33,159 nt of DNA from assembly GCA_005877965.1 (NCBI GenBank), contig VBNP01000028.1, positions 1 through 33,159 on the forward strand, read 5' to 3'. The DNA comes from Gammaproteobacteria bacterium (GTDB taxonomy: Bacteria > Pseudomonadota > Gammaproteobacteria > Steroidobacterales > Steroidobacteraceae). Numbering within the stretch: position 1 is the first letter of the stretch; each line of letters opens with the position of its first letter. Positions 10,662-15,088 of the stretch are shown in pieces. Made by a program: the position numbers and the translations under genes. Below the pieces are notes generated by a model. It was given only the letters and a program-made list of their open reading frames with translations, did no database searches and was not told the DNA's origin.

Positions 10662-12297
10662 GGCGGCGCGGCGCGCCGAGCGGCGCTGCGATGCGCTGAT
10701 CATCGGCGGCGGACACAACGGGCTGGTGTGCGCCGCGTACCTGGCGGCGGCGGGGCTCAAGGTCACCGTGCTCGAGCGGCGCGCGGTGGTCGGTGGCGCC
10801 GCGGTCACCGAGGAGTTCCATCCCGGGTTTCGCAACTCGGTCGCCGCCTATACGGTCTCGCTCCTGAACCCGAAGGTCATCCGCGATCTCGATCTCGCCG
10901 GCCACGGCCTGCGCATCATCGAGCGACGCTGCGCCAACTTCCTGCCGACCGCGGACGGGCGCTACCTGCTCACCGGCGAGGGCCGCACGCAGGCGGAGGT
11001 GGCGCGCTTCTCGGCGCGCGATGCGGCACGCCTGCCCGAGTACGGCGAGCGGCTGGAGGCCATCGCGGACGTGCTGCGGGACCTGGCGCTGACCACGCCG
11101 CCGAATGCGCTCGAGGGCAGCTGGCGCGCGGCGCTGCCGGAGCTGGTGCGCGCGGCGCGCGTGGGCGGCCGCCTGCGGCGGCTCGACATGAGCTCGCGGC
11201 GCGAGCTGCTGGCGCTGTTCGCCATGTCGGCCGGCGACTACCTCGATAACTGGTTCGAGAGCGACCCGATCAAGGCGGTGTACGGCTTCGACGGCATCGT
11301 CGGCAACTACGCGAGCCCCTATTCGGCGGGTTCCGCCTACGTGCTGCTGCATCACGTGTTCGGCGAGGTGAACGGCAAGCGCGGCGTGTGGGGCCACGCC
11401 ATCGGCGGCATGGGCGCCATCACCCAGGCGATGGCGCAGGCCGCGACGGCGCGCGGCGCGCTGATCCGTGTGGCGACCGCGGTGCGCGAGGTCCTGGTCG
11501 AGGGCGATCGCGCGGTCGGGGTGCTGACCGAGTCGGGCGAGAGCCTGCGCGCGGCGGCCGTGATCTCCAATCTCAACCCGAAGCTGCTGTACCTCGAGAT
11601 GTTCGCACCTGAGGCCCTGCCGCCGGAGTTCCGCGAGCACATCAGTCACTGGCGCTGCGGCTCCGGGACCTTCCGCATGAACGTGGCGCTCACCGAACTG
11701 CCGGATTTCAGCTGTCTGCCGGGAAGGAAGCCCGCCGACCATCACACCGCGGGCATCATCATCGCGCCGACGCTCGCTTACATGGAGCGCGCCTACTTCG
11801 ATGCGCGCACCCACGGCTGGTCACGAGCGCCGATCATCGAGCTGGTGATCCCCTCGACGCTCGACGACACGCTCGCCCCCCGGGATAAGCACGTGGCGAG
11901 CCTGTTCTGCCAGCACGTGGCGCCGCAGCTGCCCGGCGGTGAGTCCTGGGACGCGCACCGCGAGGCGGTCGCGGATCTGATGATCGACACGGTGAACGCC
12001 TACGCCCCCAACTTCAAGGCGGCGGTGCTCGGCCGTCAGATCATGAGTCCGCTCGATCTGGAGCGCACCTTCGGCCTCATCGGCGGCGATATCTCGCACG
12101 GCACGCTGAGCCTCGACCAGCTGTTCTGCGCGCGCCCGATGCTCGGCTACGGCAACTACCGCGGACCGCTGCAGGGGCTGTACATGTGCGGCGCCGGCAC
12201 GCATCCGGGCGGGGGCGTGACGGGCGCCCCGGGTCACAACGCGGCGCGCGAGATCTTGAGCGATTTTCGCCGCGGGCGACTGCGGCGGGTGGCGTGA
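10654..12297 (+). CDS. FAD-dependent oxidoreductase, PYROXD2/phytoene-desaturase-like
   Basis: Flavoprotein of 547 aa in the CrtI/PYROXD2 group. The N-terminal dinucleotide-binding fold is intact: ALIIGGGHNGLVCAAYLAAAG (glycines 18-20 and 23) and the ribose-binding acidic end VTVLERR (E41). The C-terminal FAD signature is GLYMCGAGTHPGGGVTGAPGHNAA. The characteristic PYROXD2 segments AYTVSLLNPKVIRDLDL and VWGHAIGGMGAITQAMA are present. Its start overlaps the end of the Rieske gene by 8 nt and its stop overlaps the regulator's GTG, so all three are translationally coupled. There is no phytoene synthase nearby, so carotenoid synthesis is unlikely. The reaction is unknown; it may act before or after the Rieske enzyme on the same compound. 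Confidence 0.9.
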   Translation: MGEAARRAERRCDALIIGGGHNGLVCAAYLAAAGLKVTVLERRAVVGGAAVTEEFHPGFRNSVAAYTVSLLNPKVIRDLDLAGHGLRIIERRCANFLPTADGRYLLTGEGRTQAEVARFSARDAARLPEYGERLEAIADVLRDLALTTPPNALEGSWRAALPELVRAARVGGRLRRLDMSSRRELLALFAMSAGDYLDNWFESDPIKAVYGFDGIVGNYASPYSAGSAYVLLHHVFGEVNGKRGVWGHAIGGMGAITQAMAQAATARGALIRVATAVREVLVEGDRAVGVLTESGESLRAAAVISNLNPKLLYLEMFAPEALPPEFREHISHWRCGSGTFRMNVALTELPDFSCLPGRKPADHHTAGIIIAPTLAYMERAYFDARTHGWSRAPIIELVIPSTLDDTLAPRDKHVASLFCQHVAPQLPGGESWDAHREAVADLMIDTVNAYAPNFKAAVLGRQIMSPLDLERTFGLIGGDISHGTLSLDQLFCARPMLGYGNYRGPLQGLYMCGAGTHPGGGVTGAPGHNAAREILSDFRRGRLRRVA

Positions 12298-13007
12298 ACG
12301 GCCGCGGCGCCTCGGTGGCGCGCGCGTCCCGCGGGCGGGCGCGCCGGCCGCGTTTCGAGCGCCAGCTGCCGCAGCAGCGGCGCCAGGCGCTGATCGACGC
12401 CACCATCGAAAGTCTCAAGCGCTACGGTCACGCGGGACTGTCGATCCGCACCATCAGCGCCCAGGCCGGCGTGTCGGTCGGTCTCATCAATCATCACTTC
12501 CCCAACAAGAACCAACTCATCGCGGCGGCCTACCGGCACTTCAACAGCGAGCTGGTCGGCGGCCTGCAGGCGGCGGTGGCGCGTGCCGCGGATTCGCCCC
12601 GGGCACGCATGCGCGCCTTCCTCGAGGCGTCCTTCTGCCCGCCGAATCTCGACCAGGACGCGCTCGCGGTGTGGGTGGTGTTCTGGGGGCTGTACCGGCA
12701 CTCGCGCCTGATCCAGCGGGTGCAGCGTGACACCTACCGCGGCTACGTGCGCCTGTTGCGCGGCATGCTCGCCGAGCTGCTGGCGCAGGCGCGCGCGCCG
12801 CACAGCCGCCGCCCGCGAGGCGCTGCGCGCGCGGCGCGCGGCGCGGCGCGGCCGGACCTGCGCCTCGCCGCCATCGGGCTCACCGCGCTCCTGGATGGCC
12901 TGTGGCTCGAATGGTGTCTGGAGCCGGGCGCCTTCCGGCCCGCCGAGGCCGTGGCGCTGTGCGAGGCGTGGGTGGAGGATCTGTGCCGGCGCGCCAGCGG
13001 TTCCTGA
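12294..13007 (+). CDS. BetI-like TetR-family transcriptional repressor
   Basis: TetR regulator of 237 aa. The GTG at 12294 overlaps the preceding stop (GTGA), which argues for this start; GTG 12315 is an alternative. The HTH lies at about residues 48-74 (LSIRTISAQAGVSVGLINHHFPNKNQLI), and VGLINHHF matches BetI closely. The ligand domain also follows BetI: ALAVWVVFWGLYRHSRLIQRVQ and LAAIGLTALLDGLWLEWCLEPGAF align with the corresponding E. coli BetI helices. Two oddities are an Arg-rich N-terminal extension of about 30 residues and an Ala/Arg-rich insert at about 166-187. As the last gene of the Rieske cassette it probably autoregulates through the palindrome at 9439-9458. Choline or a related amine is the likely type of inducer, by family analogy only. 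Confidence 0.88.
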   Translation: MNGRGASVARASRGRARRPRFERQLPQQRRQALIDATIESLKRYGHAGLSIRTISAQAGVSVGLINHHFPNKNQLIAAAYRHFNSELVGGLQAAVARAADSPRARMRAFLEASFCPPNLDQDALAVWVVFWGLYRHSRLIQRVQRDTYRGYVRLLRGMLAELLAQARAPHSRRPRGAARAARGAARPDLRLAAIGLTALLDGLWLEWCLEPGAFRPAEAVALCEAWVEDLCRRASGS

Positions 13008-13016
13008 GCTGGAATA

Positions 13017-13081
13017 GCCGATAATTCTGGCCGCCGGGCTGAGTCATTGACTTACTGGCGGCGCTTGTAGCAGCCGATAAT
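13017..13081. repeat. Two direct copies of AGCCGATAAT-type motif
   Basis: AGCCGATAAT occurs at 13016-13025 and again at 13072-13081 in the 138-bp gap after the BetI-like gene. The motif resembles the sigma-28 -10 element GCCGATAA, but no TAAA-like -35 lies 15 nt upstream of either copy. Function is uncertain. Confidence 0.3.
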
Positions 13082-13125
13082 CGTCCCCACATCATTTTAA
13101 GGTTTTACGGCGGAGGGGGCGTTGC

Positions 13126-13232
13126 ATGGCCCGGGGCGAGCGCGGATGGTGATTGTCGGTTGCGGCTGCGGCGGTCTGTTTGCCGCCCGCGCGCTCAAGC
13201 GTACGCACATCGCCCGGCCCATCCGCTCCTGA
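13126..13232 (+). pseudogene. N-terminal remnant of a type II NADH dehydrogenase, now a short coupled ORF
   Basis: A 28-codon ORF from ATG 13146 to TGA 13230-13232 begins MVIVGCGCGGLFAARALKR. This is the first beta strand, glycine-rich loop and helix of an FAD-binding Rossmann fold as found at the start of NDH-2 (VVIVGGGFGGLxAARALRR). It ends right after the helix, and no further ndh sequence follows. Upstream, a strong GGAGGGGG stands 7 nt before ATG 13126, which encodes MARGERGW and then stops. That frame differs from the Rossmann frame by one nucleotide, as expected if an original start was frameshifted. The final TGA overlaps the ATG of the ABC transporter gene (TGATG). It could be pure decay, or a leader peptide feeding ribosomes into the ABC gene. 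Confidence 0.6.
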
Positions 13233-15088
13233 TGGCCACACCGGTTCATCCTGCGCACCACCCGGGCACGCCGAGCGGCGGTCGCGAGGCCACGACGCTG
13301 CGGGGCTTTTTCGGGGTATTCCGCTACAGCCGGCGCGCGCTCGAACTGGTGTGGAGCACCAACCAGGCACTGACGCTCGCGCTCGCCCTGCTCACGCTCA
13401 TCGCCGGCATCGTGCCCGCCTCGGTCGCCTACGTCGGCGCACTGATCGTCGATGCGGTCGTGGCCGCGATCCGCGCCGGCGGCGGCGTGGCGACGCACGT
13501 CGCGCAGCTGGTGCTACTGGAAGGAGTCCTGGTGGCGGCGATCGCGGCGGCGCAACGCGGGCTGTCGCTGTGCCAGTCACTGCTGCGCGCGCAGCTCGGC
13601 CAGCGGGTCAACGTGATGATCCTCGAGAAGGCGCTCACCCTCGAGCTGCAGCACTTCGAGGACTCGGAATTCTACGACAAGCTCACGCGCGCGCGCCGCG
13701 AGGCATCCACCCGCCCGCTGAGTCTCGTCACCCGCACCTTCGGGCTGGTGCAGAACGGCATCTCGCTGGTGAGCTACGGCGTGCTGCTGGCACGGTTCTC
13801 GCCGTGGGCGGTCGCGGTACTGCTGCTGGCCGGGCTGCCGGCATTCGTCGCGGAAGCCAAGTTCTCCGGCGATGCGTTTCGGCTGTTCCGCTGGCGCTCG
13901 CCCGAGACGCGCATGCAGATCTACCTCGAGACCGTGATCGCCCGCGAGGATCACGCCAAGGAGGTCAAGCTCTACGGCCTGGGTCCGCGGCTGCTCGAGC
14001 GCTACCGCGACATTTTCCGGCGACTGTACCGGGAGGATCGGGCGCTCACCATGCGCCGCGATGCCTGGGGCTTTGCCCTGGGACTCATCGCAACCGCCGC
14101 GCTCTACGGCGCCTACGCCTGGATCGCGGTCACCGCCGTGCGCCGTGTCATCACCCTCGGCCAGATGACCATGTATGTCGCGCTGTTTCGCCAGGGTCAG
14201 GCGGCCGTGTCCGCCATGCTGGCGGCTGTCGGCGGCATGTACGAAGACAACCTGTACCTGTCGACGCTGTACGAGTACCTGGAAACCAACGTGCCGCAGC
14301 CGGCCGGCACCGCGGTGCTCGGTCCGCATCCGGAGGATGGCGTGCGCTTCGAGGACGTGAGCTTCAGCTATCCGGGAGCCGAGGAGCCGGCTCTCGAGCA
14401 CGTCACGCTGCACCTGACCCCGGGCACGAGTCTCGCCCTGGTGGGCGAGAACGGCTCGGGCAAAACCACCCTGATCAAGCTGCTGACACGCCTGTACGCA
14501 CCCACCTCGGGAAGGATCCTGCTCGACGGACAGGATCTGGCGCAGTGGGATGAGCGCGCGCTGCGCGAGCGCGTCGGCGTCATCTTCCAGGACTTTGCCC
14601 GCTATCAGATGCTGGTCGGTGAAAACGTCGGCGCCGGCGATGAGCGCTTCTTCGAGGACGAGTCGCGCTGGCGCGCGGCGGCGGACAAGGGGCGGGCGAG
14701 CGAGTTCATCGAAACCCTGCCCGCGGGCTATCGCACGCAGCTCGGCAAGTGGTTCCGCGACGGGCGCGAGCTCTCCGGCGGCCAGTGGCAGAAGATCGCG
14801 CTGTCGCGCGCCTTCATGCGCATCCGCGCGGACATCCTGGTGCTGGACGAGCCGACGGCGGCCATGGACGCGCAGGCGGAGTCCGAGGTATTCGAGCATT
14901 TCCGCCAGCTGGCGCGCGAGCGCATCACCATCCTGATCTCGCACCGTTTTTCCACCGTGCGCATGGCCGATCAGATCGCGGTGCTCAATCACGGCCGCAT
15001 CATCGAACGCGGCCGCCACGAGGAGCTGATGAAGCTCAACGGGCGCTACGCGCAGCTGTTCACGCTGCAGGCGCGTGGATACCGCTGA
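13232..15088 (+). CDS. ABC exporter, fused permease and ATPase (MdlB/MsbA-like type)
   Basis: Half-transporter of 618 aa with an N-terminal TM domain (about residues 40-330) and a C-terminal nucleotide-binding domain. Walker A is GENGSGKTT (from about residue 405), the Q-loop is VIFQDFARYQ, the signature is LSGGQWQKIALSRAF (from about 514), Walker B is ILVLDEPTAAMDA (D539) and the H-loop is ISHRFSTV (H571). All motifs are intact, so it should be active as a homodimer. The start chosen is ATG 13232, which overlaps the stop of the ndh-like remnant; an in-frame start at 13160 would add residues read from the remnant's DNA in another frame. There is no good Shine-Dalgarno, which favours translational coupling. 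Substrate unknown; no biosynthetic or precursor-peptide gene was seen next to it. Confidence 0.92.
   Translation: MATPVHPAHHPGTPSGGREATTLRGFFGVFRYSRRALELVWSTNQALTLALALLTLIAGIVPASVAYVGALIVDAVVAAIRAGGGVATHVAQLVLLEGVLVAAIAAAQRGLSLCQSLLRAQLGQRVNVMILEKALTLELQHFEDSEFYDKLTRARREASTRPLSLVTRTFGLVQNGISLVSYGVLLARFSPWAVAVLLLAGLPAFVAEAKFSGDAFRLFRWRSPETRMQIYLETVIAREDHAKEVKLYGLGPRLLERYRDIFRRLYREDRALTMRRDAWGFALGLIATAALYGAYAWIAVTAVRRVITLGQMTMYVALFRQGQAAVSAMLAAVGGMYEDNLYLSTLYEYLETNVPQPAGTAVLGPHPEDGVRFEDVSFSYPGAEEPALEHVTLHLTPGTSLALVGENGSGKTTLIKLLTRLYAPTSGRILLDGQDLAQWDERALRERVGVIFQDFARYQMLVGENVGAGDERFFEDESRWRAAADKGRASEFIETLPAGYRTQLGKWFRDGRELSGGQWQKIALSRAFMRIRADILVLDEPTAAMDAQAESEVFEHFRQLARERITILISHRFSTVRMADQIAVLNHGRIIERGRHEELMKLNGRYAQLFTLQARGYR

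Follow-up and report, generated by a model that had tools for sequence, protein, structure and literature searches.

A remnant of a type II NADH dehydrogenase gene in front of an ABC exporter gene, and its possible role as a translational leader

Gene arrangement and promoter

The window, meaning the whole stretch of 33,159 nucleotides analysed here, is part of a metagenome-assembled genome of uncultured soil Gammaproteobacteria (2.79 Mb, 275 contigs, 82% complete), whose nearest named relatives belong to the Rhodanobacter/Steroidobacter part of the class. For comparisons, one genome per species was used. At the locus, a BetI-like gene, a short reading frame and an ABC exporter gene follow each other on the forward strand, on which all features of the window described below are located. 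The regulator gene of the TetR/BetI type occupies positions 12186-13007 (TetR_N, E=6.5e-12; TetR_C_6, E=1e-20), with its true start probably at about 12297. The exporter gene, 13232-15088, specifies a membrane domain and an ATPase and is MsbA/ABCB-like (ABC_tran, E=3.6e-31). Matches to the exporter were obtained in 60 of 60 relatives searched, and in most of them the orthologs are near-full-length. Other arrangements were also seen. In G034 (L177) and G062 (L176), an ORF of about 440 aa, which by eye looks like an APC-type permease gene, separates the BetI-like gene from the promoter of the exporter gene; the window does not contain it. In G002 (L009), the exporter gene is found behind a gene for a putative M48-type peptidase, also named by eye. 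Directly upstream of this exporter gene, neither the type II NADH dehydrogenase (NDH-2) gene ndh nor the promoter described below is present, and no NDH-2 match was found in the G002 genome (98% complete).

The short frame, referred to as the stub, extends from a TTG at 13122 to a TGA ending at 13232 and comprises 36 codons. It is syntenic with intact ndh of relatives, in which TTG is the usual start across the genus. A Shine-Dalgarno (SD) sequence derived from ndh, GGAGG (13112-13116), precedes the in-frame TTG by 5 nt, exactly as in ndh of G060; the start regions read CGGAGGGGGCG-TTG-CAT-GGC in the window and CGGAGGGCGCG-TTG-CAC-GGC in G060. The calculated energy of the anti-SD duplex is -10.6 kcal/mol before TTG13122 versus -1.7 kcal/mol at ATG13232 of the exporter gene. 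The native ndh stop and the exporter start overlap in TGATGG (13230-13235; TGATG, 13230-13234), and the stub ends in CGCTCCTGATGG, exactly as ndh does in G015, the nearest ndh-bearing genome. Folding predictions of the leader RNA revealed nothing unusual (z=+1.6). The first-pass annotation had already recognized the strong SD and the overlap with ATG13232. It had described a frame of 28 codons, which does exist between ATG13146 and TGA13230-13232, but the true ORF starts at the conserved TTG13122. The start codon that it had placed one frame away, ATG13126, is present as well, but only because of a C-to-T difference (CAC to CAT) relative to G060 (TTGCATGG in the window, TTGCACGG in G060). It opens an incidental out-of-frame ORF of 8 codons (13126-13152), which is absent in G060, and was ruled out as a real start since it is not conserved in relatives.

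Upstream of the stub, a -35-like element, CTTGTAG (13064-13070), and a -10-like element, CCCCACAT (13085-13092), constitute a predicted promoter that is called sigma32-like here on account of its sequence. With a spacer of 14 nt, CTTGTAG-N14-CCCCACAT (13064-13092) matches at 12 of 13 positions (shuffle p=0.02). Element and spacing are conserved across the genus; the consensus CTTGNAA-N12-15-CCCCANAT was detected at a constant position before the first gene of the unit in most genomes, most loci scoring 10 to 13 of 13 with shuffled means near 8. The strict pattern has a single match in the 2.8-Mb window genome. As a control, the htpG promoters of the genus were inspected; they read ATTGAAA/CTTGAAA-N14-CCCAAAAT/CCCAAGAT, i.e. 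(C/A)TTGAAA-N14-CCCAA(G/A)AT, and the promoter of the window resembles them. In front of groES, a related-looking element was seen which, with the promoter motif, scored no better than shuffles. A GATAAT within the spacer could instead serve as a sigma70 -10 element, but it is missing in several genomes in which the CCCC box persists. Right after the BetI-like gene, at 13009-13025, the string CTGGAATAGCCGATAAT represents a decayed promoter copy: it matches the bet-proximal ndh promoter of G060 (ACTGGAATAGCCGATAATCACCCCCACAT), but the CCCCACAT box is gone.

The distance from promoter to start is 8-13 nt when the exporter gene comes first and mostly 24-35 nt when ndh or a stub does. Exporter-first loci, with the start 8-13 nt after the -10 box, are L176, L177, L180, L183 and others. 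This layout would give leaderless or near-leaderless mRNAs in many species of the genus. Since there are lineages of the genus in which the promoter lies 8-13 nt before the exporter start with no ndh in between, the exporter promoter may be older than ndh. Its conservation, whether ndh is there or not, and its resemblance to the htpG promoter suggest a heat-shock-like exporter.

Identity of the short frame

At least 15 congeneric genomes possess ndh, either intact or cut by a contig end, directly before the same exporter gene. It is intact at the site in G060, G009, G073, G019, G017, G061, G027, G001, G016, G072, G077 and G078; G010 and G005 have an intact ndh with a longer gap to the exporter gene, and in G015 and G033 only the C-terminal part is seen, at contig ends. 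In most relatives, the ndh stop overlaps the exporter start (TGATG) or abuts it. That the gene at this site specifies NDH-2 is indicated by its best solved relative in phmmer searches, 9mqy, a non-electrogenic NADH:ubiquinone reductase (E=1e-105).

Two parts of NDH-2 are joined in the stub. Codons 1-28, LHGPGRARMVIVGCGCGGLFAARALKRT (segment A, 13122-13205), match the N-terminus of NDH-2, codons 1 to about 28, with the first beta-alpha unit VGCGCGGLFAARALKRT (72% amino acid identity over 25 aa), and over codons 12-27, 42 of 48 nt are identical to ndh of G060. Codons 29-36, HIARPIRS (segment B, 13206-13229), correspond to NDH-2 codons of about 60-67; for 10 out of the 12 ndh relatives compared, the best match falls on one and the same orthologous codon. 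The equivalent sequence is DIARPIRS in G027 and G061 and DIAQPIRT in others, the seven residues IARPIRS being identical in the window, G027 and G061. At the nucleotide level, segment B has best matches of 17-20 of 24 nt to ndh relatives, and taken singly these scores are barely above, or equal to, those of shuffled controls; the assignment of segment B to NDH-2 relies on the shared position, on the frame and on seven residues that are identical. One frame is common to both segments and the native stop. The earlier statement that only the first beta-alpha unit of NDH-2 had been left is therefore correct for codons 1-28, but the remaining eight codons stem from NDH-2 as well.

When the window genome was searched with NDH-2 of a relative, the sole match was the stub, 13134-13208 (72% identity, 25 aa, E=1.7e-4), and a second ndh was not found with this query in the 82% complete genome. 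Other flavoproteins of the Pyr_redox_2 fold are encoded, none of which scored as NDH-2 with the same query, and a Complex I subunit is encoded too. Generic Pfam and NCBIfam profiles gave weak values with the 36-aa peptide, which is too short for them (E about 0.02-0.1; Pfam Pyr_redox_2, E=0.1). Profile support for the proposed NDH-2 similarity was thus poor, but the protein of the relative hit the exact spot. The profile values could be read as a fortuitous resemblance to GxGxxG, the widespread Rossmann motif. Such a coincidence has practically no probability; it is refuted by the exact syntenic position as well as by the conserved start and SD, the second NDH-2 segment in frame and the native stop. 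Because of syntenic position and the 42 of 48 identical nucleotides shared with G060 ndh, the identity of the remnant is beyond doubt, and judged by sequence and synteny the frame 13122-13232 is a real remnant of an NDH-2 gene. Most of the gene is missing, including the NADH-binding and C-terminal parts, so that a catalytic protein is impossible.

Deletion of ndh in the window, as had been proposed from the stub, is almost certain, given intact ndh at the exact position in relatives, a comparison that the first-pass annotation had suggested as a check. In place of the single event originally envisaged, ndh lost about 400 codons through two in-frame deletions, from which its native start and stop were spared. 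The first took about 31 codons after codon 28; the second, of about 380 codons, reached from codon 67 into the last few codons. At the second junction, the sequence CGCTCC is similar to both flanks, which could reflect microhomology. A fragmented assembly of 275 contigs and 82% completeness raises the question of whether the assembly process collapsed or mis-joined an ndh that is in fact intact. This is highly improbable: the join lies inside a contig of 33 kb and maintains the frame twice, the sisters G062 and G034 likewise lack ndh, and the stub carries substitutions of its own.

Loss of ndh in other lineages

Stubs are not confined to the window. In G031 (L034), an in-frame stub, LAGRGQARVVMIYSYVFFRRGSRLVSRAAPRQ followed by a stop, is located directly upstream of the exporter gene and consists of the NDH-2 start joined to the C-terminal IYSYVFFRRGSRL; it is clearly independent of the stub in the window. 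G063 (L181/L039) has a 16-codon ORF starting with TTG, preceded by GGAGG at 7 nt and ending in TGATG at the exporter start. It begins 33 nt from the promoter, as is the case for ndh, and, with a body too short for an NDH-2 match, is probably a third ndh stub. The peptides specified by these two stubs differ from that of the window. No trace of ndh is left in G074, in G075/G021/G025 and in G062/G034, where the exporter start is found 9-13 nt after the promoter.

In the exporter tree, losses of ndh nest beside ndh-bearing relatives: G031 groups with ndh-bearing G019 (100/99), G074 with G027 (93/83), and the window together with G062/G034 with G015 (95/95). Several losses are therefore judged to be independent. 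The trees of ndh and exporter agree on well supported pairs, which is consistent with shared descent of the two genes. Equal-cost parsimony does not settle the state of the genus root, as a root lacking ndh requires 8 changes and a root possessing it 9; ndh could have been gained once at the base or later. Gain instead of loss was rejected as a general account, since stubs are present in the window, in G031 and probably in G063, and since ndh-bearing sisters adjoin G074 and G031 in the tree.

The stub as a candidate leader of the exporter gene

The explanation favoured for the whole locus, at a probability of about 0.75, is that of a collapsed ndh operon, the stub of which would act as a translational-coupling leader feeding the exporter gene. 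The ancestor would have possessed a two-gene operon consisting of the sigma32-like promoter, ndh and the exporter gene, in which the stop of ndh and the start of the exporter gene overlapped. In the lineage of the window, a first cistron of 36 codons would have been left with promoter, SD, TTG start and stop of ndh; that promoter and ribosome binding site were retained ahead of the exporter gene had been noted in the first-pass annotation. Ribosomes would load at the strong SD, translate the stub as far as TGATG and, after termination there, reinitiate on the exporter gene. Promoter activity, translation of the stub and reinitiation are all predicted from sequence features. The stub was read as a coupling leader because the start of the exporter gene itself is almost devoid of an SD, and two features expected of a leader cistron are present: an upstream ORF with good SD and start, and a stop overlapping the downstream start. 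By analogy with cbrX-cbrA of Pseudomonas putida (see below), the overlapping TGATG and the contrast in SD strength would constitute a layout in which translation of a leader, whatever its peptide, feeds the downstream gene. For the coupling role itself, the case is somewhat better than even.

Coupling is not the only workable arrangement, because sisters without ndh have the exporter start 9-13 nt after the promoter (G062, G034 and G074), where the SD is equally poor, and manage without a leader. The stub-free deletions in the close sisters G062 and G034 can in fact be taken to mean that the stub is a decaying pseudogene without a role, that the exporter gene is translated independently and that the frame was preserved by accident. 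The change from GFGG to GCGG in the stub, an unusual substitution, fits this reading, and the chance of staying in frame is not negligible. Neutral decay is nevertheless considered unlikely, though it is the most serious competitor: the stub contains no stop or frameshift, the exporter start is almost without an SD, and the in-frame stubs of G031 and probably G063 keep SD, start and stop at the exporter start. That three of three stubs are in frame fits selection for maintaining the coupling, but is only suggestive; such selection is not proven, because the chance expectation is 1/27 at best and the third stub is only probable. An open, SD-led ORF could also specify a selected small protein or a leader peptide with a function of its own. 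There is very little to recommend this, since the product would be half a Rossmann beta-alpha unit plus eight codons from further along, the stubs of G031 and G063 encode different peptides, and the closest sisters have none, which leaves no conserved peptide to select.

Returning to the coupling leader, a tentative extension, held to be somewhat less likely than not, is that several lineages of the genus lost ndh convergently by net in-frame deletions that keep start, SD and stop, as the exporter gene would need ribosomes from the first cistron, and that deletions without a stub place the exporter 9-13 nt from the promoter, which would make its mRNA near-leaderless. The rule suggested is that deletion of a gene coupled to a needed neighbour must either preserve the reading frame or extend precisely to the promoter. 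If true, the requirement for exporter translation constrains how the neighbouring gene can be deleted, and collapse of a first cistron would be a natural origin of bicistronic leader peptides. The deletion itself is ordinary genome biology, and the locus catches gene loss in the act; the points of interest are that in-frame stubs recur and that the exporter gene can revert cleanly to a near-leaderless state. In addition, the locus appears to tie a conserved uncharacterised ABC exporter, along with NDH-2 in relatives, to a promoter of heat-shock-like type in these uncultured soil Gammaproteobacteria.

Among the papers searched, no direct precedent was found for a remnant leader of this kind or for an ndh-ABC heat-shock operon, but the components can be compared with known systems. 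The intact ndh-ABC operons of the genus, such as those of G060, G009 and G019, have the promoter, the SD, the overlap of stop and start, the exporter and, in most cases, the TTG start in common with the window; they encode about 435-468 NDH-2 codons versus 36. With sigma32 (RpoH) heat-shock promoters, the window promoter has in common a CTTGNAA-like -35 element, a 14-nt spacer and a CCCC(A)-type -10 element, but its CTTGTAG departs from CTTGAAA, and the likeness is one of sequence alone. Leaders of the bicistronic design (BCD) resemble the stub in their strong SD, short first cistron and stop overlapping the second start; they are engineered and, unlike the window, contain an additional SD within the first cistron (PMC5995908). 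A natural counterpart is cbrX-cbrA of Pseudomonas putida, where a gene lacking a recognisable SD is overlapped at its start by a short leader ORF that its translation requires, the sequence of the leader being unimportant (PMC6591292). In the parts of that report drawn upon here, cbrX is conserved and is not described as a gene remnant, whereas the leader in the window is a collapsed enzyme gene for which coupling is proposed.
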